From positions 2,108,001 through 2,172,000 of the forward strand of contig JARFIW010000108.1 in the NCBI GenBank assembly GCA_036346225.1: 64,000 nucleotides of DNA, given 5' to 3'. The notes below the pieces were generated by a model. The model was not told the origin of the DNA, did no database searches, and saw only the letters and a list, made by a program, of their open reading frames with translations. The position numbers were made by a program, and so were the translations under genes. Positions 9,914-48,330 of this stretch are shown piece by piece (within the stretch, counting starts at the first letter, position 1; every line of letters starts with the position of its first letter). The stretch is from Platerodrilus igneus (lineage: Eukaryota > Arthropoda > Insecta > Coleoptera > Lycidae).

Positions 9914-10590
9914 GTGAAAACATCGACTGTAGTAACAAGAATGGTTATCGACTAACTCAGTGGGACGGGTGGTGTAAGTGTATGAGTGTAAGTGTATAAG
10001 AAACGAAGCTACAAACATTCAAGCGAGAATCATGGGACAAACTTGTAGAGAATCACCTGAGGCGTGACGCACGGGGAGTTCCATATCGGATACTTAAAGA
10101 GAAGATCACTCCACCCTACAGATGGATGACGGAAACACGTCTAACTAAAACGATTCGGCAAAGGCGCTAATAAAAAAGCTGATATCTGATGACAACACCG
10201 AGGAGGACTCGGACAGTCAAGCGGATCTACGGAACAGCATGATTTGCTGAAACGGCAATAGTAACAGGTCTTGGAATCAACAGGAGGAGAACCTTCCACC
10301 CTTCACAGAGGGTGAGTTGCTTTTGGCGATTGCAAAGTGCGGAAATAAAAGGGAACTAAGCCCTGACAACACCCAGGCTGAAGTCATAATAACGTTGGCA
10401 GACCAAATATCCGATATGTTAACTGCATTCTACAATGAATGTTTCATACAAACAAAATTTCCTACCATTTGGAAAAGGTCTAACCTGGCAATTATCCCGA
10501 AGGGGCTTGACAGAGATGTCCTCTCCAGGATCATATCGGCCGATATGCTTTCTGAACGTCCTAGGGAAACATATGAAGGATTACTAGCCA
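9914..10590 (+). pseudogene. R1-clade LINE copy B, 5' part
   Basis: It starts with the same bases as copy A (GTGAAAACATCGACTGT) directly after the CA repeat. The linker frame reads ESWDKLVENHLRRDARGVPY, then RILKEKITPPYRW, typical of the R1 region between endonuclease and RT. After a frameshift the frame at 10317-10601 gives LLLAIAKCGNKRELSPDN and TKFPTIWKRSNLAIIPKG (RT blocks 1-2). It is interrupted at 10590 by the foldback insertion. Confidence 0.83.
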
Positions 10591-11242
10591 TTATAATTTA
10601 AATAAGAGACGCTATACTTGCGTCCCCAATCTAACAACCTGAAACAAAAACTAAAAATAGAGTTTGAATAAAGGTATCCCCAGCGTTGATTTTGGGGTGT
10701 GTCCGATCAACAAGACACACGCGAAAGTAAAAGAGGAGGGATCCGTAATACCGGGTAGCAATCTTACGGATTCCTCCTGTTTTACTTTCGCGTGTGTCTT
10801 GTTGATCAAACACACTCCAAAATCAACGCTAGGCATGCCTTTATTGATTTGATTTGAGTGTGTTCGATCGACAAGACACACGCGAAAGTAAAAGAGAGAT
10901 CCGTAAAACTGCTACCCGGTATTACGGATCCCTCCTCTTTTACTTTCGCTTGTGTCTTGTTGATCGAACACACTCCAAAATCAACGCTAGGGATACCTTT
11001 ATTGATTTGATTTTGGAGTGTGTCCGATCGACAAAACACACGCGAAAGTAAAAGAGGGATCCGTAAAACTGCTACCCGGTATTACAAATCCCTCCTCTTT
11101 TACTTTCGCGTGTGTCTTGTTGATCGAACACACTCCAAAATCAACGCTAGGGATACCTTTATTCAAACTCTATTTTTAGTTTTTGTTTCAGGTTGTTAGA
11201 TTCTTATTTTGAATGGATTAATTTTGAAGTTATGTTTAATTA
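10591..11242. mobile_element. Foldback element: three palindromes inside 50-bp perfect inverted ends
   Basis: The 652-bp insertion is flanked by an 11-bp direct repeat ATTACTAGCCA (10580-10590 and 11243-11253) that is single-copy in LINE copy A. Inside, 10630-10680 and 11150-11200 are perfect inverted repeats starting TCTAACAACCTG. Between them lie three near-perfect hairpins of about 170 bp (about 10680-10840, 10855-11005 and 11015-11165), each with arms carrying ACACGCGAAAGTAAAAGAG and a short centre containing TACCCGG. The centre of the first is inverted relative to the other two. There is no coding capacity. A direct repeat of 9-11 bp with long inverted ends suggests a Mutator-like or foldback transposon; the superfamily is inferred. 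Confidence 0.85.
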
Positions 11243-11253
11243 ATTACTAGCCA

Positions 11254-12388
11254 ACAGGATTTTACTTGAGAATACTCTCTTTTGGATTTTATTGAAAATT
11301 TCGTGTAGACAGTCAAGAATTAACTCTTTATATTATATGACAGTATGGTCAAAAATGGCTGAAAAATTTAAAATATTTTCCAACAAACTTATAACAATTA
11401 AGATAGAAAAAACAAAAGAGATTATTTTACACAAGAATACTTTCTTTTGGATTTTATTACAAATTTTGTGTACAGTCAAGAATTAACTCTTCATAAACAG
11501 TATGGTGAACCGTAGAAATATACTCAGTATAAGCAACTGCCAATACGGTTTTAAAAAAGGAAAGTCGATTGAAGACGCTATCAACCACGTTTTTGAATCT
11601 TTGAAAAAGTCCGACAATAAATACATCCTAGCAGTAATGATAGACACCGAAGGGGCATTTAACAACCTTTGGTAGCCAGCCCTGTTTCACAGGCTGGAAT
11701 TAATCGACTTCCCCAAATAACTGTACCATACGTTTCGAAATTACTGCCAGGACAGATACGTTTCACTACAAGGACCACAGTCGATATCTAAAATCGTTTC
11801 CAAAGGTTGCCCGCAGGGATCCATATGCGGGCCTCTATTCTGGGACATTTTGCTGGATGGGCTGTTGGACGACCTTTGGGTCATAAGAAAGGTTTTAACT
11901 GTCGTTGCCTATGCGGAGGACATACTCGTCTTGGTGGAGGGGAATACAAGGGTCGCAATCGAGCAAAAAGCTACAACCACAGTAGAACGAATAAACAACT
12001 GGTGTAGAAGCAACAAAATGCTCATCTCTGCGTCCAACACCACATACAGGATGATGAAGGGGAATCTCACGAGGAACCCTCAAATCATTTTACGACACGT
12101 CAGGGTTAAAAGATCGCTCCAAACTAAGTATCTTGGGGTTATCCTGGACGAGAAACAAAGCTTTGAAGGTTATTTACAAAAGATGTGCGCAAAGGCAAAA
12201 GTTTAATGTAAGACATGACCAGTCTAGCCCAACGCCAGTACAAAATCCTGCTCAACTGTATCAAACTCTACATGAACAGCGTGATGGCATCCGTAATAAC
12301 TCATGGGGCAAACGCGTGGCCTTCCAGGATGAATCTAGTAAAGCCCCCCATAACGCGTGAACTCGGCGCAAAGGGGACTCATGCTGCG
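11254..12388 (+). pseudogene. R1-clade LINE copy B, RT core and thumb
   Basis: 11261-11493 holds two related blocks (AATACTNTCTTTTGGATTTTA ... CAGTCAAGAATTAACTCTT) that copy A lacks, an extra local duplication. From 11515 the RT resumes: KSIEDAINHVFES, then MIDTEGAFNNLW followed by a stop, then GCPQGSICGPLFWDILLDGL, then AYAEDILVLVEG at about 11905-11940. In the catalytic motif the first aspartate has become glutamate (YAED for YADD), so this copy could not polymerise. The thumb continues with TKYLGVILDEKQSFEGYLQK to 12206, then a frameshift. Confidence 0.85.
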
Positions 12389-12401
12389 GTTTTCAGGGGT
12401 C

Positions 12402-12623
12402 AAGGTCCCGGGTTCAAATACCGACACGGTTCTCTTGAAAAATGTTAGGCGAGCATTTTTCACAGGAGGCCCCGTGTGTGTGTGTTGTCACGCACGTTAA
12501 AGATCCTTACCCTGCTTGCAATAGCAAGGGTTCGGCAAAATTCAAAATTTTTAAGTTAAGAAAAAACTCGCTTCCTGGCTTATGTAGTACCGTCGGGTGG
12601 AGCATTGGAAAATTACATGTAGT
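12402..12623 (+). mobile_element. tRNA-derived SINE, 5'-truncated copy 1
   Basis: Begins at the B-box part of a tRNA-like head (GGTCCCGGGTTCAAATACCG) and runs through the body shared with three other copies (ATGTTAGGCGAGCATTTTTC, CACGCACGTTAAAGATCC) to ACATGT. Direct repeats GTTTTCAGGGGTC and GTTGACAGGGGTC (12389-12401, 12624-12636) flank it. LINE copy A has a single GTTGACAGGGGTC at this place, so the insertion is confirmed by an empty site. Confidence 0.88.
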
Positions 12624-31657: not shown

Positions 31658-31661
31658 CTAT

Positions 31662-32182
31662 TGTAACGGGCTACTACTACCGCGTTTCTTTAATTTAAAA
31701 CAAGTAATAATAATGGTCTTTATTACTCACTGTTCACAAGTCTATTTAACAGTATATGCCTTATTTATAGATGTTTTCAGTCCACTTAACAATGAAGCAC
31801 TATTACACTAATGAATTTACAAGCACTAATATCTTCTTAAACTAACTTCTTTACCCTAGGTCCAATAACCACACTAACACACTATTTGTTTATACACTTC
31901 TATTTATTTATGTATACTGCAAGCTGCATGCACATTAGACACAGCATATCATTTATGTATATATTCTAAAAACTCAACTACGTTTACTTTACAACGATAT
32001 AATTTATATTAGACATTCAAGAATAGACTAACTCTTACATTCATAAGCGGCCTTATATATACCCTGCATTAAGATATGACTCATTATCTAGAACTTTGTA
32101 GAAGGATTCTCGAATGCTGAAGAATACGCTGTGCCCCGGGCGTTTGTATGTTTGACGGGTTGCATAATAGTGGATCGCAACA
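31662..32182 (-). repeat. 3' LTR of retrotransposon 2
   Basis: In element orientation it starts TGTTGCGATCC and ends CCCGTTACA (canonical TG...CA). Differs from the other LTR only at A/C in GGGTTGC(A/C)TAAT. The last 32 or so codons of the macrodomain ORF, including its stop, lie inside this LTR. Confidence 0.96.
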
Positions 32183-32747
32183 CTGCCCCCTCTTTAAAAC
32201 CGTTACGTCTCATAACTGTAAATCCATCTTGACGCCAATTCGATGACTGGTGACGGTATCGGCAGCTATCTCCTCTGGTGCATCCACCGCGTCGTTGGAA
32301 GTAACAGTCAACACTCTTTTCATGGTCTTGGTAGGCAACCGGTTGATAACAACAAACAAGAACCTGGACGTTGGTTCCCTGGAAAACTACTTCTAGCATA
32401 TTTCGGACTATCCTCCAATCCAAGCGATCCAGTCCACAGCCCAGCTTGGGCACCGCTAGTCTCGTTACTCCATTTTCCATCATCTGCGCCTTAAGATTTA
32501 GCAAAGCCTCCCATAGATGTTCATAACTAGGTCTCTGCCATGAAGAATTTTTGGTGACCAGATAGTAAACATAACGATTTTTATCTTGAAGAACCAAAGA
32601 TTTTCCTACAGTTGGCTGCTGTTGTACTAATTCATCCACACATCCAAACTTGAAAACAACAGCTATTCCCCTTGACATTGCCAAATCTTGAGCTACGCAA
32701 TGTGCAAGGGAATACATTTCTGGTGCTCTAAACAGATCTTGCTGTTT
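32088..32747 (-). CDS. TARG1/OARD1-like macrodomain (ADP-ribosyl hydrolase) with CCCH zinc finger
   Basis: TARG1-type macrodomains remove ADP-ribose from acidic residues and deacylate O-acyl-ADP-ribose. From the ATG at 32717 the 209-residue frame reads YSLAHCVAQDLAMSRGIAVV (residues 2-21), YYLVTKNSS (51-59) and PKLGCGLDRLDW (90-101). These align in order with human TARG1. Its catalytic Lys84 (T-K) and Asp125 (C-G-L-D) correspond to Lys56 and Asp97 here, both present. The first strand, QDLFRAPEM, is encoded upstream of the ATG in the same frame, open to 32747. Residues 138-156 form a CCCH finger (C-x7-C-x5-C-x3-H), which suggests RNA binding. The frame overlaps the end of pol (stop at 32693) in the -1 register and ends inside the LTR. 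It is fully open. Function in the element is inferred: reversal of host ADP-ribosylation on element RNA-protein complexes. Confidence 0.88.
   Translation of the reverse strand, partial: KQQDLFRAPEMYSLAHCVAQDLAMSRGIAVVFKFGCVDELVQQQPTVGKSLVLQDKNRYVYYLVTKNSSWQRPSYEHLWEALLNLKAQMMENGVTRLAVPKLGCGLDRLDWRIVRNMLEVVFQGTNVQVLVCCYQPVAYQDHEKSVDCYFQRRGGCTRGDSCRYRHQSSNWRQDGFTVMRRNGFKEGAVLRSTIMQPVKHTNARGTAYSSAFENPSTKF
32183..32196 (-). promoter_or_regulatory. Polypurine tract of retrotransposon 2
   Basis: On the minus strand AAAGAGGGGGCAG lies directly before the 3' LTR, the position and composition expected for the plus-strand primer. It overlaps the macrodomain ORF. Confidence 0.85.
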
Positions 32748-35700
32748 TCAACAACAACGCCAAATCTCGCTTTAGCGGAACCACCATACGCCGCCATAAA
32801 GCTCTCAAAATCTGCATTTGGCTCATGATTAATAACTTGCCGAACACCATTATCATTATTTGAGTCTTCCTGGTTGTTGCCAGTGTAGGGTGTTAAACGG
32901 TCAAAGTGTACCACTTTCGGTTTACCACGAGGGGATCTTCTGATCCGGTACACTACATCATTAATCCTTTTTAACACTTCGTACGGCCCTTCCCATTGTC
33001 TTTGTAGTTTTGGCGACAATCCACGTTTTCTTTGTGGATTGTTCAACCACACTAAATCTCCAGGTTGATAACCACCTTCTTGTGCTCTCGTGTCATATTG
33101 TGATTTCATTCGATCGCTTGCTGCCTGTATATTCTTTCGGACGTTTTTGTGAATACTATTTGATCTTTCACGAAGCTTACTAACGTAATCTTCACCAGCG
33201 ATCTCTTCTCCAGGTTTAAATCCAAACTGAAGATCACATGGTAGCCGCAATTCACGTCCTAGCATTACGCAAGCGGGCGAGTATCCTGTGCTGTCATGTA
33301 CCGAAGATCGGTACGCCAGTAGGAACAAATGTAGATATTGGTCCCAGTCCCGTTGATGTTCAGAGACAACTTTGGCCAGGTACTTTCCTAACGTTCTGTT
33401 CATTCTTTCAACCATTCCATCCGATTGAGGATGAAGTGGCGTGGTTCTAGTTTTCCTGATTCCAAGATGCTTGCAGACGTTTTGAAACAACGCTGATTCG
33501 AAGTTCCGACCTTGATCGGAGTGTAATTCCAACGGAACTCCAAAGCGACAAAACAACTCCTCACTAGTACATCTGCAACCGTCTCGGCTTCTTGGTTAGG
33601 TATAGCATATGCCTCCGGCCATTTGGTAAAATAATCCATTGCAACCAAGATGTATTTATTCCTTTCTCTGATTCAGGAAACGGACCAGCTATATCAATGG
33701 CTACCCTTTCAAAAGGATTCCCACGTTATACTGTCTCATTGGGGCTTTCCGTTTTGAGACCGGGCCATTTGCAGAGGCACACAATTCACATTTCCGGCAC
33801 CACTCCTTCACATCTTCTTTGCAGTTCACCCAATAGAATCTTTCTCTCACTCTTTCGAGAGTTCTTTTCACGCCAAAGTGCCCTCCGGAAATACCATCGT
33901 GCAAGTGCTGCAACACTTCCGGCACTCTGCTTCTCGGCACTATCACTTGAAGTCTCTCAGTGCCATCTTCAAATTCCAGGCGTCGTTTCAAGATTCTATT
34001 TTCCATCATCAAGGAGTCCCACTGTGCCCAGTATGCCTTCAGGCTCCTACTTGAAATACTAATTTCTTCCCAAGCTGGTCGTTGTCCTCTATTTTTCCAC
34101 TCAATAATACGTCCCAATTCGGCGTCATTCTCCTGGTCTTCTCGTATTCTTTCGAGTTGCCAAGTATCATCGGTTACCGTCATTCTATGGATGACACTTA
34201 TTTTCTCTTCCATCTTGGAGCAATGATTGCAGTCCATCGGACAAGGTCTCCTTGATAGAGCGTCTGCATTCCGATGGCTAGTTCCTACACGATGTTCCGT
34301 ATCAAAGTCATATTCCTGCAGCCGCTCTATCCACCTTGCCACTTGCCCTTCAGGATTTCGAAACTGCAGTAACCATTTCAGTGCAGCATGGTCTGTTCTC
34401 AACAGGAATTTACGGCCGTATAAGTACTTATAAAAGTGCTCTACGGATTTGACGACGGCCAACAGCTCCCTTCTTGTCACACAATAGTTCCTTTCTGGCC
34501 GCGATAAGACCTTGCTGAAATACCCAATAACTTTTTCTTGTCCGTCCTGCACTTGAGAAAGAACGCCTCCTATAGCTGTGTTACTGGCATCGGTATCCAA
34601 CACAAATTTTCCCTCCATCCGCGGATAACTCAAAATTGGTGCTGTAACTAGTAGCCGTTTCAGTTGTTCAAATGCTCTGTGGCAGTCGTCATTCCAATCA
34701 TATTCTTGTCCATCTTCGGTTAATTTTGTTAACGGTTTGGCAATGTTCGCAAACCCAAGTATAAAACGTCGGTAATATGTGCACAATCCTAGAAAACTGC
34801 GTAGTTGGTGTATATCTGCTGGTGTAGGCCACTCTTGTACCGTTTTTATTTTGTCAGGGTCAGCTCTTATCCCGGTCTCTGAGACGACATGTCCTAGGTA
34901 TTTCACCTCTTTTCCAAATAGATGGCACTTCTTGGGGCTTAATGTAAGGTTTGCCCCGCGTAATCTTTGGAATATCTCCTCTAGGTTCTTAAGATGTTCT
35001 TCAAAAGACCGGCCTAACACTATCACGTCGTCCAGGTACACCAGACATGTCTTCCAGGACAGTCCACGCAGTACCGACTCCATCAATCGTTCAAAAGTAG
35101 CAGGAGCATTGCATAATCCAAATGGCATGACCTTGAACTGCCATAATCCCGTTCCAATTGTAAAGGCAGTCTTTTCTTTATCGTTTGGCTACAAGCCTAC
35201 CTGCCAGTATCCGCTTTTCAAGTCCAAGGTCGAAAACCATTTAGATCCGGATAGAGTATCTAAGGTGTCATCAATTCTGGGCAAAGGATAGCTGTCTTTC
35301 TTTGTCACATTGTTAAGCCGCCGGTAGTCTACACAAAACCTTGTCGACCCGTCCTTTTTCTTGACAAGCACTACCGGGGATGCCCATGGACTATTCGAGG
35401 TTCAATCACTCCCTGTTCTTCCATATCGGTGATAATTTGCTCAGCTTCCTTGCGTTTTGCCAAAGGAAGCCGCCTGGGTGTTGTCTTATCGGTTGCGCAT
35501 CTCCAGTATTGATCTTGTGTTGCACAACATTCGTCCTTCCTTTCTCACTATCATCCAGTGCAAACACACCTCGATATCGTCCGACCAGTTCTTTTACCTT
35601 GCCCAGTTGGTCGCCACTTAATCCTTGACACGAGGGTATCAACATATCCAGCAATTTCTGTGAACAACCGTTGATTGGTTTATTTTTCGTGTCGTCCACA

Positions 35701-36344
35701 CAACGTTTAATATGACATACTGGAATGCAACTTCCCACAATCATGCCTTTCTTCAGGGTCACTGTATGGGGATTAATGTTCAGCACCCTTACTGGTACCA
35801 TATTTCGAGACTTTACTAGCGTTCTTCCAATCAGAAGTCCCTCCTGACCCATTCCCGATTCAGTTGCTTCCATCATGCATACTTGTCCTTCCCGGAGCGT
35901 ACCATCCGGGCGTCCCATTACTATCATTTCCGCCTTCTCGGGTATTTTCATATCGCAAATCATTCGAACTTGCATCGTCTGGTTACTCCTACCTTGAAAT
36001 GGAATCTCATCATCATCTATCCGAAGCACATTTTCTTTCATGTTCACATGAAACCCATATTCTCTCATGAGATCCATTCCCAAGATCACTTCTTCTGTAA
36101 TTTCAGCTACCAACACTCGATGATTAATTAATTTGTCCCCAATTGTCAACATAACGGCAGTCTCTCCGTGAGTACAAATTTTCTCACCACTTGCCGTTCG
36201 AAGACACACCGATACAGGTAGCACTTTTCCACGACCAACCAAATCTGGTCTCACAATAGATTTTGTCGCTCCTGTATCCACGAGTAATCGGACACCCCTA
36301 CCATTAATTCTACCATCGATATAAATGCTGTCCAGACTTTCCAC
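32693..36344 (-). pseudogene. Gypsy pol: protease, reverse transcriptase, RNase H, integrase (frameshifted)
   Basis: Piece 36344-35406 holds the aspartic protease (LLVDTGATKSIV, Asp at residue 23) and reads into the RT N-terminus. 35371-35189 gives [20 protein letters not shown] and [14 protein letters not shown]. 35128-33701 starts MPFGLCNAPATF, has the catalytic YLDD at residues 31-34, the RNase H region (DTDASNTAIGGVLSQ, LRTDHAALKWLLQF, HRNADALSRR) and the integrase zinc-binding H-H-C-C block. 33648-33400 carries the first integrase Asp (MDYFTKWPEAY). 33556-32693 carries the second Asp (SDQGRNFES), the Glu (GMVERMNRT) and the GPY module with VHFDRLTPY. At least four frame breaks (about 35390, 35160, 33680, 33500) stop a single polyprotein from being read, though every domain and catalytic residue I looked for is there. 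Confidence 0.95.
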
Positions 36345-36421
36345 CGACGATGCAGCACGGATGATAATCTCCGGGGCACTACGTTGTGCTGTCGACGTTC
36401 GCCCCCCTATGTCGACTTGCT

Positions 36422-37733
36422 TTAGTTTTCCTGCTGCTCAACCGGTTGTTTTTTTGGTTGAGTGCAGAGTCTCTGTATATGACCAACTTCGCCGCAGTTC
36501 CAGCATCGCAGACCCCATCTCCGCGGTCGTTGTCTTTCAAGCTTTTCCACACGGTTGATTATTTCATGTATGCTGTTCTGCGCTTGATCAGGTTCCTCTA
36601 AGGCAGACCGAACTTTGTGACCCATTCTGTGTGATGTCTGCTTAGCTGCTTCAAATTCAAGCGCATGAGCCAGTGCGTCATCCAACATCTTTGGCCGTGC
36701 TAGTCTTAGCGCTTGCTGTATTTCGCCATCCTTAACGCCATCCACAAATGTTTGGACAGCAAGTTGTTCGAGGAAGCTGTCTGGTGCCGTTGGGTATGCC
36801 AATCTAACTAACCTGGCAATGTCAGCTTCGAATTCTTGCAGGCTTTCACTTGTCTTTTGCGAGCGGTTTTAACTTGTGCGTGGTAAACCTGTTGAAGGTG
36901 AGCATCTCCATATCTCATCTCAAGCTTCGATGTTAAGAGACCGTAATCATTCTGCTGGTGATCGGGAATCGTTTGTAAGATGTTAAGAGCTTCCCCGTAA
37001 GGCCACTATTAAGGAGATAGCCTTCTCTTTGTTGCACCAACCGTTGGCTATTGCAGCAGCTTCAAATTGTTTCAAATATGTGGGCCAAGGTGTTTTACCA
37101 TCGAACGTGGGTGGTTTCACTTTAAATTTAGACGATATTGACTCGCTTCTTTCCATGGTTCTTATTTCTGGAATGTTCTGATTTACAACTTGGTTTGCTA
37201 TTTCAAGTGGCTGTGTTGTTAGTGAAATCACTTGTTCTTGCAGCCTCATCATATCTTCTTCCATTTTACCAATTTACTGTCCAACTTTTGCTCAACTGTT
37301 TTACTTGTTCAGTAAAATCTTCTTTCAATGCAATGGAACTTTCCATTAATCTTTGTTCTAACGTGGCTGTACTTTCATTCAACATTTCTTCCACTTTGGC
37401 AGCATTTTCACTTAACCTTTCCATTTTCTCAGCGTTTTCAGTAAACCTTTCATCTATTTTTGCAGCATTTTCAGTAAACTTTTCATCTATTTTTGCGGCA
37501 TTTTCAGTAAACTTTTCATTTAGTGTCACTTCCAGTTTAGCCGACCTCTCCTCCATTTTCTCAGCATTTTCACTAAGTGTCAATTCTAGTTTAGCCGACC
37601 TCTCCTCCATTTTCTCAGCATTTTCACTAAGTGTCACTTGCATTTCGGATTTAAAATCCTTAAGGAAGTTCATTAAAGTTTCTGCTTCCATTTTACTCTG
37701 ACTTCTTGTCACTGGCATATACAAACTACTCAA
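36422..37733 (-). pseudogene. Gypsy gag with coiled-coil repeats and zinc knuckle (frameshifted)
   Basis: 37733-37266 (155 codons) begins MSSLYMPVTRSQSKMEAETL and is a highly charged helix of repeated SENAEKMEERSAKLE and FTENAAKIDE units. 37264-36983 contains KVKPPTFDGKTPWPTYLKQF, the usual Gypsy capsid entry motif. 36802-36422 ends with CWNCGEVGHIQRLC (C-x2-C-x4-H-x4-C), the nucleocapsid knuckle. Frame breaks lie near 37265 and between 36983 and 36802. The repeated coiled coil at the N-terminus is unusual for Gypsy Gag and probably varies in copy number between copies of the element. Confidence 0.93.
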
Positions 37734-37754
37734 ATGTCTTTAGACTTAATTAAT

Positions 37755-37777
37755 CACCCAACACAGCCTGACACCAG
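37755..37777 (-). promoter_or_regulatory. Primer binding site of retrotransposon 2
   Basis: One base inside the 5' LTR the minus strand reads TGGTGTCAGGCTGTG. It starts TGG as required for pairing with CCA of a tRNA, and its first ten bases fit the 3' end of some tRNA-Leu species (from memory). Confidence 0.65.
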
Positions 37778-38298
37778 TGTAACGGGCTACTACTACCGCG
37801 TTTCTTTAATTTAAAACAAGTAATAATAATGGTCTTTATTACTCACTGTTCACAAGTCTATTTAACAGTATATGCCTTATTTATAGATGTTTTCAGTCCA
37901 CTTAACAATGAAGCACTATTACACTAATGAATTTACAAGCACTAATATCTTCTTAAACTAACTTCTTTACCCTAGGTCCAATAACCACACTAACACACTA
38001 TTTGTTTATACACTTCTATTTATTTATGTATACTGCAAGCTGCATGCACATTAGACACAGCATATCATTTATGTATATATTCTAAAAACTCAACTACGTT
38101 TACTTTACAACGATATAATTTATATTAGACATTCAAGAATAGACTAACTCTTACATTCATAAGCGGCCTTATATATACCCTGCATTAAGATATGACTCAT
38201 TATCTAGAACTTTGTAGAAGGATTCTCGAATGCTGAAGAATACGCTGTGCCCCGGGCGTTTGTATGTTTGACGGGTTGCCTAATAGTGGATCGCAACA
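37778..38298 (-). repeat. 5' LTR of retrotransposon 2
   Basis: 521 bp, one difference from the 3' LTR. Followed on the plus strand by the CTAT duplication and the rest of the satellite monomer. Confidence 0.96.
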
Positions 38299-38302
38299 CT
38301 AT

Positions 38303-41473: not shown

Positions 41474-42833
41474 CTAGATCTTAGGCTTAAGGCGTTTACG
41501 GCGCCAGAAAAAAAACGAAATGAGATCAGGAACATTACGGGTTCTCCGACGTACATCTTCCGGTTCGGAAGGAGTATAGAATAATGTCTGCCTTTTGTGG
41601 GCAGCTTTCTGCCAAACAGAAACAGTAGGGGATGTAGTAGTTGTAGCACGCGGTTTAGGAGGTGGTAAGGGTAGTTTAGAAAACTCAAAACGCGTCATCG
41701 AGGGACGTTGTTTGTTGTTAGGATTAGTGGTAAGAAAGTCAACGGCAGAAGAGGAAACCTTATGGGTTGTCAGTATATCAACGGTAGAAAAAGAAAAAGT
41801 ATTGGCTGTCCGAAAATCAACGTTACGAAAAGAAACACAAGCAGAGCACACTCCAGTTACATTAGCTAGAGGGACAGAAGTAGATAAAATTTTAACGACG
41901 TTAGATGGAAGACTAGAAGTATCACAGTTAGGAAAGAAAACAGCATTGGCTGTAGGAATATCAACCCCAGGAAAAGGAGCAGAATCGGATAACACTTCAA
42001 CCATATTACATAAAGGAAGAGAATCTGGTAGAAGTTTATCAACGTTACAAGAACAAACAGCAACAGGAAGAACTTCATCCACAATAGATGAGGAAGCAAC
42101 CTTCATCAACATTAGATAACAGGACATTAGCTAGGATGTCACCAACCTTAGCTAAAAGAACAGAAGCAAGTAGCATTTTGTCAGCATGAGAAAAATGAGT
42201 AAGAGTAGGTAATGTTTCATCAACGTCCGGTAAAGAAATAGAATCAATTAAGACTTCATCCCAGTTAGCCAACAGAGTAGGAACAGACAAAACTTCAGCC
42301 ACGATTGGTACTGATTCCTTAACAATAGTAGATAACGAAACAGGATCAGATAAAATTTTGACAGAAACAGAAAGAGGCATTAAAGATACAGGTTCATGGA
42401 CTTCAACAGGACATTCGCTGACTGAATTAGAAGTTATCGTCACTTTAGTGACATTTGTGTTTGCAGACACGACAAAAATTTCTTGGGTAAAATCGTTCAA
42501 GAAAGCGGGAACAAACTCTTGAGAAGCTAGCTGCAAGTCACTAATTCGACGCATTGGTTGTAAGGGTGGTAGATGCACAGTTTGGTGTGGAAATAAAAAC
42601 GTAGGATCCATTTGATCATCTTTTGATTCGCAAAAAACAGAAGAAATTTGGTTCTTGTTAGTAGAAGTTCGGTAAGTAGAGGCGTGATAGTCGTAAAAAT
42701 CAACATTACAGTTCAGCGGCTTATATGGCTGAGAAGGGTACGAGGTGATGGCAGTAGGGCGCGCAGAAGGAGGTGTAGAAAAAAACGTAGAACTAGAGAC
42801 AGAAGAAATTTTGTTCGAAGCTGTATTTGCCAA
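41474..42833 (-). pseudogene. Retrotransposon 3 copy 1: 13-residue repeat protein (frameshifted)
   Basis: Two minus-strand frames (42833-42075 and 42127-41474) overlap and together encode one protein. It starts MANTASNKISSVSSSTFFST, has a Pro/Tyr-rich N-terminus, then a run of 13-residue repeats such as VDEVLPVAVCSCN, VDKLLPDSLPLCN, MVEVLSDSAPFPG, VVKILSTSVPLAN and VTGVCSACVSFRN (consensus VD-x-L-x-x-S-V-x-L-x-N), about 18 units. The C-terminal tail (FEFSKLPLPPPKPRATTT, then EPEDVRRRTRNVPDL) ends with a basic RRKRLKPKI. It lies directly after gag, where protease would be expected. I recognise no family; the regular repeat suggests a beta-solenoid or surface protein. Copy 2 keeps it in one frame. 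Confidence 0.7.
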
Positions 42834-42913
42834 AGAAGGGTATGTTGTGATAGTAGTAGCAGGATGACCTGGATAAGGTACATAAGAGAACGTAGAATGA
42901 GAAGCAGAAGAAA

Positions 42914-43447
42914 TTAAGCATCTGGAGGTGAGAACAGAATTGGAAGTATGATTCGAAGACCTATTAGAGTAGGATGACAGTTGGGACAGTTGTGGCGAGT
43001 AACTCCTTTATGCCCGCAACCATAGCAATGGAGTACTTGAGGACGAGTACAACGCGTGGAAACATGACCAGGTTTATCGCAATTAAAGCATACGACCTGA
43101 CGAGTAGAAACCTTAACAACTCGGTCATGTGAAGTAAAAGTATTTTTCTCAATAGTAGCACACTTATACGCAAAATCCGGCGCTTCAAAATGATAAATCA
43201 GTAAATTAGACAACGATTTCCGGTCACAAAATCTATGCCGATTACCACGATAGCAAAGTAACTCTTTAGACTCGAACAAGTCTACTGCAGACTCAAATAA
43301 CTGCAATTCTGACACATGTTGAGTTGGTCGTCCTACAAAATCATGTACGGTAAGAGTGTTTGGGTCACCAGAAAATTTCAAATTCCATTCGCACACAGGA
43401 AGACCTTGGTGGAAAGCCGAGAAAACAGTCATTTTGAATACGAACAA
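42914..43447 (-). CDS. Retrotransposon 3 Gag-like protein with two zinc knuckles
   Basis: A 177-codon frame. N-terminal LPVCEWNLKFSGDPNTLTVH, then DFVGRP and ELQLFESAVDLFESKELLCY follow the layout of arthropod Gypsy Gag (W.LKFSG....L.V..F......E......F.SA..L..G.A...Y), although the capsid core is shortened. The C-terminus holds CFNCDKPGHVSTRC (C-x2-C-x4-H-x4-C) and a second knuckle-like CYGCGHKGVTRHNC. The frame then ends near 42914. It can probably package RNA but needs another element for RT and integrase. Confidence 0.82.
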   Translation of the reverse strand: MFVFKMTVFSAFHQGLPVCEWNLKFSGDPNTLTVHDFVGRPTQHVSELQLFESAVDLFESKELLCYRGNRHRFCDRKSLSNLLIYHFEAPDFAYKCATIEKNTFTSHDRVVKVSTRQVVCFNCDKPGHVSTRCTRPQVLHCYGCGHKGVTRHNCPNCHPTLIGLRIILPILFSPPDA

Positions 43448-46956: not shown

Positions 46957-48330
46957 TTACGCCGCCAGAAAAAAAAAGGAAACGAGATCAGGATCATTAA
47001 GGCTTCTCCGACATACATCTTCCGGTTCAGAAGAAGCATAGAATAATGTCTGCCTTTTGTGGGCAGCTTTTTGCCAAACAGGAACAGTAGGGGATGTAGC
47101 AGTTGTAGCACGCGGTTCAGGAGGTGGTAAGGGTAGTTTAGAAAACTCAAAACGCGTCATAGAAGGACGTTGTTTGTTGTTAGGATTGGCGGTAAGAAAG
47201 TCAACGACAGAAGAAGAAACCTTATGGGTTGTCAGCATATCAACGGTAGAAAAAGCAAAAATATTGACTGTCCGAAAATCAACCTTACGAAAAGAAACAC
47301 AAGCAGAGCACACTCCAGTTACATTAGCTAGAGGGACAGAAGTAGATAAAATTTTAACGACGTTAGGTGGAGGACTAGAAGTATCACAGTTAGGAAAGAA
47401 AACAGCATTGGTTGTAGGAATATCAACCCTAGGAAAAGGAGCAGAATCCGATAACACTTCAACCATATTACACATAGGAATAGAATCTGGTAGAAGTTCA
47501 TCAACGGTACAAGAACAAACAGCAACAGGAAGATCTTCATCCACAATAGATGAGGAAGTAGCCTTTATCAACATTAGGTAACAGGACATCACTACGATGT
47601 CACCAACCTTAGCTAAAAAAACAGAAGCAAGTAGCATTTTGTCAGTATGAAAAAAATGAGTAAGAGTAGGTAATGTTTCATCAACGTCCGGTAAAGGAGT
47701 AGAATCAAGTAAGACTTCATCACAGTTAGCCAACAGAGTAGGAACAGACAAAACTTCAGCCACAGTTGGTTTCTTAACAATAGTAGATAACGAAACAGAA
47801 TCAGGTAAAATTTTGACAGAAACAGCAAGAGGTATTAAAGATACAGGTTCGTGGACTTCAACAGGACCTTCGCTGACTAAATTAGAAGCTATCGTCACTT
47901 CAGCGACATTTGTATTTGCAGACACGACAGAAATTTCTTGGGTAGAATCGTTCAAGAAAGCGAGGACAAACTCTTAAGAAGCTAGCTGCAAGTCACTAAT
48001 TCGACGCATGGGTTGTAAGGGTGGTGGATGCACACTTTGCTGTGGAAGTGTAAACGTAGGATCCATTTGATCATTTTTTGATTTGCGAAGGATAGAAGAA
48101 ATTTGGTTCTTGTTAGTAGAAGTTTGGTAAGTAGAGACGTGGTAGCCGTAAAAATCAATATTACAGTTACGCGGTTTATATGGCTGAGAAGGGTACGAGG
48201 TGATGGTAGTAGGGCGAGCAGGAGGAGGTGTATTAAAGTACGTAGAACTAGAGACAGAAGAAATTTTGTTCGAAGCTGTATTTGCCGAAGAAAGGTATGT
48301 TATAATAGTAGTAGCAAGATGACCTAGATG
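46957..48330 (-). pseudogene. Retrotransposon 3 copy 2: 13-residue repeat protein, mostly one frame
   Basis: The frame 47955-46957 (332 codons) runs without a break through the repeats that are frameshifted in copy 1 (STIVDEDLPVAVCSCTVDEL, VVKILSTSVPLANVTGVCSA). It ends with the same tail (FEFSKLPLPPPEPRATTATS, SEPEDVCRR), then diverges at the last residues. Upstream, a single stop (about 47975) separates it from the N-terminal part. Protein similarity to copy 1 is about 90 percent by eye, which suggests coding constraint before the copies decayed. Confidence 0.7.

Follow-up and report, generated by a model that had tools for sequence, protein, structure and literature searches.

A Ty3/Gypsy retrotransposon of the beetle Platerodrilus igneus with a predicted TARG1-class macrodomain and a CCCH finger behind its integrase

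TARG1, also known as OARD1 or C6orf130, is a macrodomain enzyme whose substrates, according to the relevant parts of PMC7050489 and PMC6582358, include Asp/Glu esters and nucleic-acid (RNA) ends; an excerpt of PMC8501950 adds the thymidine-linked ADP-ribose of DNA. Its catalysis involves Lys84 and an acidic residue at position 125, given as Glu125 in PMC7050489 and as Asp125 in the corresponding part of PMC5087735. A macrodomain like TARG1/OARD1 in sequence class and predicted fold is encoded in Platerodrilus igneus (Coleoptera: Lycidae) but, unlike TARG1, by a retrotransposon. It lies on the minus strand of the window, that is, the whole 64,000-nucleotide stretch analysed here (contig JARFIW010000108.1 of assembly GCA_036346225.1, positions 2,108,001 to 2,172,000 of the forward strand), behind the integrase (IN) of a Ty3/Gypsy element, and is followed by a CCCH zinc finger. 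The passage of PMC7050489 on ALC1-like macrodomains describes these as minimal and without extensions, from which the module of the element differs.

The closest described mobile elements are those of Ty3/Gypsy (Metaviridae), among them relatives named transposon 412. They share with the element its long terminal repeats (LTRs), the layout of primer-binding site (PBS) and polypurine tract (PPT), the Gag knuckle, and the order of protease (PR), reverse transcriptase (RT), RNase H (RH) and IN. In contrast to it, the deposited proteins of relatives such as P0146, P0214 and the beetle P0221 stop soon after the Integrase_p58_C domain and contain no macrodomain. A captured chromatin-type domain fused behind the integrase is also found in chromoviruses; there, however, the chromodomain is a methyl-lysine reader, whereas the domain of this element is a putative enzyme. 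The chromodomain fold differs from the macrodomain fold.

The macrodomains of RNA viruses, such as alphaviruses and coronaviruses, resemble that of the element in fold and in the proposed reversal of host ADP-ribosylation. Those named in the relevant part of PMC7729036 are of the MacroD type, whereas the element's is TARG1/ALC1-like. The best viral fold match (Foldseek) was VP8 of Kadipiro virus (A0A8E0KJF2, 45 percent identity), a hint that TARG1-class macrodomains occur in other viruses. The antitoxin DarG, a bacterial toxin-antitoxin partner in the section of PMC7050489 concerned, stands at 25 percent identity. Searches of the open-access literature, with subscription papers and repeat databases outside their scope, showed, among the papers listed, no described element of this layout. 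A preliminary description of the window had likewise known of none. Related proteins are, however, already deposited in public databases under names including 'C3H1-type domain-containing' and 'OARD1-like'.

Identity of the macrodomain and its conservation across copies and beetles

The best PDB match of the window macrodomain is human C6orf130/TARG1 (phmmer, E 1.3e-32), with 46 percent identity in the structural alignment. The Pfam Macro score is barely above its cutoff (23.0 vs 22), so the class assignment rests on the PDB search and the predicted fold. The latter was obtained from a 52-row alignment of 51 hand-picked proteins and the window protein (predicted local distance difference test, pLDDT, 80.7) and is a macrodomain fold closest to that of TARG1; it replaced a single-sequence model discarded at pLDDT 47.8. 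Where a MacroD-class sequence is concerned, TARG1 ranks far ahead in the searches by sequence and by fold. Sequence and predicted fold therefore support membership of the TARG1/ALC1-like class, as the preliminary description had proposed from the motifs SLAHC, GIAVVFK, YYLVTK and GCGLDRLDW, which occur on the minus strand, within 32088-32747, in the same order as in TARG1.

The same description had pointed to a Lys and an Asp equivalent to Lys84 and Asp125, and the phmmer alignment with human TARG1 places both where it said. This pair is retained in 48 of 51 IN-linked or CCCH-bearing proteins (54 in total, of which three with a gap at either column were set aside) and in 70 of the remaining 72 proteins.

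The module is repeated throughout the 2.71-Gb genome. A search with the macrodomain yielded 16792 first-look candidates, and the 150 copies scored are 91-100 percent identical, 118 of them with no stop within the match by hand count. A second search, with the relative P0004 as query, scored 150 of 10676 candidates and by eye revealed subfamilies differing mainly in the LTR-encoded tail. The top 30 loci all match both IN and the LTR, and a macrodomain match was present in 60 of 60 loci, which correspond to 59 copies because L034 and L056 coincide. The E-values, the 150 scored genome copies and the relatives in other species exclude chance resemblance. A further sample was drawn by IN (every seventh row plus the second row of a 136-row search, n=20), and is nearly though not wholly blind to the module, as the query ends in residues whose DNA overlaps the start of the module. 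All 20 copies carry the module.

Beyond Platerodrilus, a protein profile search found 270 proteins, and the statements on species that follow concern the best 120 of them. The module occurs in Molorchus minor, Gonioctena quinquepunctata, Brassicogethes aeneus, Aromia moschata, Exocentrus adspersus, Leptinotarsa decemlineata, Harmonia axyridis, Callosobruchus maculatus, Diabrotica virgifera, Pyrocoelia pectoralis, Aquatica leii and Holotrichia oblita. All 12 named species are Coleoptera, from six families, and in eight of them the protein also bears an annotated IN domain. In the Aquatica protein P0057 the macrodomain alone was seen, with no IN or finger, and a planthopper protein (P0069) clusters with IN-linked sequences that have no recognisable finger.

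A tree was built from 54 hand-picked rows, 26 from elements and 28 OARD1-like and other rows; from the larger row set 27 of 127 had been omitted (19 near-identical bird rows, and eight that were chimeras, fragments or long rows), none of them through the length limit. All 26 rows from elements fall on one side of a branch with support 94/81, which was not starred and whose bootstrap had not settled. Grouping the long rows P0079 and P0095 with them was not rejected (p-AU 0.474). The nearest tree row to the window is Harmonia P0030 (96/85).

These data bear on the idea that the macrodomain represents an OARD1 gene of the host, or a processed copy of one, beside or inside the element and not part of it. 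The 46 percent identity with human TARG1 would suit such an origin. The linkage to IN and LTR matches at all 30 top loci, the macrodomain match at every one of the 60 loci, the joining of IN and macrodomain within a single protein in eight of the named beetles and the position of the element macrodomains on one side of a branch speak against it. The idea is refuted for this element family and retains only the slightest probability. Confusion can also run in the opposite direction: Leptinotarsa P0065, named OARD1-like, carries Integrase_p58_C and is thus the end of a retrotransposon Pol. At least one beetle protein called OARD1-like is therefore retrotransposon Pol, and the annotation of host OARD1 in beetles may be contaminated in this way.

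Selection was measured by comparing variants with the commonest codon, in a one-sided binomial test that counts variants and not events on a tree. In the 20 IN-sampled copies the macrodomain holds 24 nonsynonymous and 31 synonymous variants, which is 0.30 of the neutral expectation (p 7.5e-6), far from the value near 1 of an unconstrained module. The ratio is 0.23 (p 1.6e-4) for variants in at least two copies and 0.37 (p 0.009) for singletons, and the LTR-encoded tail, used as an internal control, gives 0.97. In the 60 loci chosen by macrodomain similarity, variants in at least three copies yield 0.21 for the macrodomain, 0.42 for IN, 0.31 for the CCCH part (six variants) and 1.02 for the LTR tail; singletons yield 0.67 for the macrodomain and 1.12 for IN. 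Purifying selection on the macrodomain across copies is thus supported. Of the three outcomes that the preliminary description had named as refuting (absence of the module from other copies, a ratio near 1, or a predicted fold other than a macrodomain), none came about.

A functionless fragment of host origin, captured and carried along passively, would be expected to decay, and 19 of the 20 sampled copies do have deletions in the module relative to the chosen reference copy, with a stop in two of 20. However, homopolymer runs of at least three bases, which make up 93 of 550 bases, contain 40 of the 43 one-base deletions, and there are no insertions. Six sites account for 44 of the 48 deletion events. 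This pattern looks like run-length assembly error or recurrent slippage and is unlike free decay. Given also the ratio of 0.30 in copies chosen by IN, against 0.97 in the tail, and the presence of the module in twelve beetle species, passive carriage was rejected and is considered very improbable.

Architecture, reading frame and origin of the module

The element occupies 31662-38298 on the minus strand, with termini TG..CA, and has the following features.

31658 to 31661, no strand: target-site duplication CTAT, on the 3' side of the element
31662 to 32182, minus strand: 3' LTR, 521 bp, TG..CA, containing the final 95 bases of the macrodomain open reading frame (ORF), stop included
32088 to 32747, minus strand: stop-to-stop frame of macrodomain, CCCH finger and LTR-encoded tail, 219 amino acids, with an ATG at 32717
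32183 to 32195, minus strand: polypurine-tract-like run AAAGAGGGGGCAG, adjoining the 3' LTR and within the macrodomain ORF
32250 to 32306, minus strand: CCCH zinc finger C-x7-C-x5-C-x3-H, from the pattern, with a Pfam score just below cutoff
32349 to 32738, minus strand: TARG1/OARD1-class macrodomain, from PDB search, Pfam and predicted fold
32427 to 32429, minus strand: Asp codon equivalent to human TARG1 Asp125, residues counted on the phmmer alignment
32550 to 32552, minus strand: Lys codon equivalent to human TARG1 Lys84, counted likewise
32693 to 33556, minus strand: integrase, with rve core (part), Tf2-1-like SH3 and Integrase_p58_C (Pfam)
33701 to 35128, minus strand: RT (part), RNase H and integrase H2C2 zinc-binding domain (Pfam)
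35406 to 36344, minus strand: aspartic protease, gag-asp_proteas (Pfam)
36422 to 36802, minus strand: part of Gag with CCHC zinc knuckle (Pfam)
37266 to 37733, minus strand: N-terminal Gag-like ORF with internal repeats, called Gag by position only
37760 to 37777, minus strand: putative tRNA primer-binding site (CTGGTGTCAGG..), adjoining the 5' LTR, its tRNA partner putative
37778 to 38298, minus strand: 5' LTR, 521 bp
38299 to 38302, no strand: target-site duplication CTAT, on the 5' side of the element

The two 521-bp LTRs agree at 520 of 521 positions and CTAT stands on each side, as befits the young Ty3/Gypsy element of the preliminary description. The Pfam domains follow the Ty3/Gypsy order of Gag knuckle, protease, RT, RNase H, H2C2, IN core, SH3 and Integrase_p58_C. 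The sequence PR-RT-RH-IN distinguishes Ty3/Gypsy from copia elements. The LTRs with their PBS and PPT match the Metaviridae layout given in PMC7879559. In Gag, zf-CCHC was found in 36422-36802 and the match to Ty3_capsid is weak (Pfam, E 0.011). A Pfam scan of six element ORFs found no chromodomain at the IN C terminus. The Gag-like ORF at 37266-37733 contains internal ENAEKMEERSAKLE units, and a long ORF on the opposite strand overlaps it at 37138-37701.

Along the ORF at 32088-32747 the macrodomain is followed by the CCCH finger, the polypurine run and the final 95 bases in the LTR. The zf-CCCH score of the window copy is slightly below the Pfam cutoff (20.1 vs 20.5); the relative P0138 scores 29.4, and all four Cys/His residues of the finger are conserved in P0001-P0004. 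The internal coding region of the window copy is broken into several ORFs and its IN and macrodomain frames differ, whereas some other genome copies have both in one frame. Five of the 150 scored copies hold an open frame of 1418-1462 amino acids with no stop noted by hand count, close to the 1419 codons between the protease and the ORF end in the window, so that in those copies the module is part of the Pol frame. Single proteins with the IN Pfam domains, macrodomain and finger are likewise found in Harmonia (P0030) and Diabrotica (P0047). The preliminary description had called the module a third coding module; it does have its own ORF in the window, but in some other copies and in other beetles it forms the C-terminal end of the Pol frame, in most cases together with a CCCH finger.

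A separate third gene with its own start codon was considered and rejected. The ATG at 32717 is not conserved, which makes such a start unlikely: among the other copies compared only L006 shares it, and most read EYSLAHC at this position. A programmed frameshift between IN and macrodomain was not adopted either, given the common frame in some copies and the clustering of one-base deletions in homopolymer runs. As these deletions look like run-length error or slippage, the split ORFs of the window prove neither decay nor programmed frameshifting. Many of the top IN matches have the same shifted tail as the window copy, and the shared frame-breaking deletions may be either assembly errors or real.

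The origin of the module was approached through the relatives of IN, of which 2235 were found and the best 120 examined. The macrodomain profile matches nine of the 120. The end of p58_C could be located in 82; a tail of at least 80 amino acids follows it in 10, and nine of these 10 tails are the macrodomain, a count bounded by contig ends, search length limits and gene prediction. At 51-59 percent identity, the deposited proteins P0146 (moth), P0214 (butterfly), P0221 (beetle), P0165 and P0186 end without a macrodomain. On these sequences the module therefore seems to have been added to an integrase of the kind named transposon 412. Spider relatives with 53-57 percent IN identity bear that name, which suggests a possible place in the 412/mdg1 lineage. 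A Ty3/Gypsy-type integrase on a 1.6-kb contig (P0155) is filed as Salmonella enterica and is probably contamination.

Proposed role of the module

The module is likely an eraser of ADP-ribose tags that would aid the element against its host, and the use against ADP-ribosylation-based silencing hypothesised in the preliminary description is plausible. The macrodomain and finger would be made as the C-terminal end of Gag-Pol and packaged in the particle, where the finger would bind nucleic acid and the macrodomain would perform a TARG1-like hydrolysis. Clearing ADP-ribose from the element's own nucleoprotein, be it proteins, RNA or cDNA, would then shield it from host PARP-type enzymes. We regard this account, of a TARG1-class eraser and CCCH finger acting on the element's own components from behind IN, as falling just short of an even chance. 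More tentative is its extension to a whole clade of LTR retrotransposons, long-lived in insects, that would have captured a TARG1-type eraser, linked it within Pol to a nucleic-acid-binding finger and would counter the ADP-ribosylation of particles, RNA or cDNA.

Some background is consistent with a role of this kind. According to an excerpt of PMC7050489, RNA ADP-ribosylation has been suggested to serve the recognition of transposon-derived RNA. In parp-1 null Drosophila, as reported in part of PMC7712786, eight mobile elements were significantly changed, five up and three down, and a further ten, nine from the gypsy superfamily, increased on weaker evidence.

Several points weigh against an eraser shielding its own element. 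Only three of the eight significant elements in the fly belong to the gypsy superfamily, three of the eight went down, and the authors of PMC7712786 allow, in the same part, that de-repression may be indirect. Insect-restricted alphaviruses have lost the catalytic residues of their macrodomain (PMC7729036, relevant part); insects may thus be hosts in which antagonism of PARP can be dispensed with, and the simple antiviral analogy is weakened. Among the relatives, the catalytic positions are changed in P0047 (R,E), P0048 (R,G) and P0058 (R,G), Asn replaces Asp in P0076, one of the 72 remaining proteins, and the loop around the catalytic Asp is shortened in P0138. A finger can be recognised in only 25 of the 37 proteins linked to IN, a set that includes fragments, and selection on the CCCH part was not shown within this genome, with a ratio of 0.66 (p 0.28) over few sites. 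The module deletions and stops of the sampled copies belong here as well.

The chromodomain at the IN C terminus of chromoviruses is thought to steer or tether integration. By analogy, the macrodomain could be a reader, and not an eraser, whose binding to ADP-ribose at DNA breaks or on chromatin would guide or tether integration. Its place behind IN in one Pol frame, the same as that of the chromodomain (PMC3605345, in the part concerned), would fit this, as would the existence of readers among ALC1-like macrodomains (PMC7050489, likewise in part) and the changed catalytic positions in five relatives. A pure reader, however, could do without one or other catalytic residue, whereas the pair is retained in 48 of 51 proteins. 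Insertion flanks could be cut at 48 of the 60 loci (47 different copies), and in 47 of the 48 they start with a TA-centred 4-mer. They share no common repeat, a result at sequence level only: the sole flank matches were one locus fetched twice and one pair with 78 percent identity over 579 bases. Targeting to one repeat family was accordingly rejected, and the reader is held to be unlikely, though it deserves consideration. At L020, a primer-binding-site-like sequence and not a flank follows the LTR end, as in a tandem LTR-internal-LTR array.

The eraser could also act on host regulation at large, lowering the ADP-ribosylation of host silencing proteins or chromatin and so permitting transcription of the element. 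In parp-1 null flies the mobile elements that go up outnumber those that go down (PMC7712786, in part), and TARG1 is able to free whole polymers from proteins according to an excerpt of PMC7050489. Nevertheless, a Pol-linked enzyme would exist only after transcription, the CCCH finger would point toward nucleic acid, and the fly effect is possibly indirect, as noted by its authors. This makes a host-wide action rather improbable.

Should the module be an active eraser, TARG1-class enzymes would be added to the known counter-defence macrodomains, and ADP-ribosylation would become a testable layer of insect transposon control, read from the transposon's own countermeasure. If the proposal is true, this retrotransposon counter-defence would reveal a PARP-based arm of that control.

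Besides the element family, a scan of viral contigs for element-type macrodomains returned four loci. The one that was read, L001, lies amid phage-type genes by eye and holds, at 9953-12508, a TARG1-like ORF with a WGR-PARP catalytic protein (PF00644, E 8.8e-23; PF05406) one ORF onward. The two are a possible writer-eraser pair for ADP-ribose.

Elsewhere in the window, two minus-strand ORFs, at 41474-43447 and 46957-47955, are alike by eye and had no Pfam match where tested. The first adjoins an ORF with a CCHC knuckle at 42914-43447, and the two similar ORFs are perhaps copies of the ORF1 of a non-LTR element.
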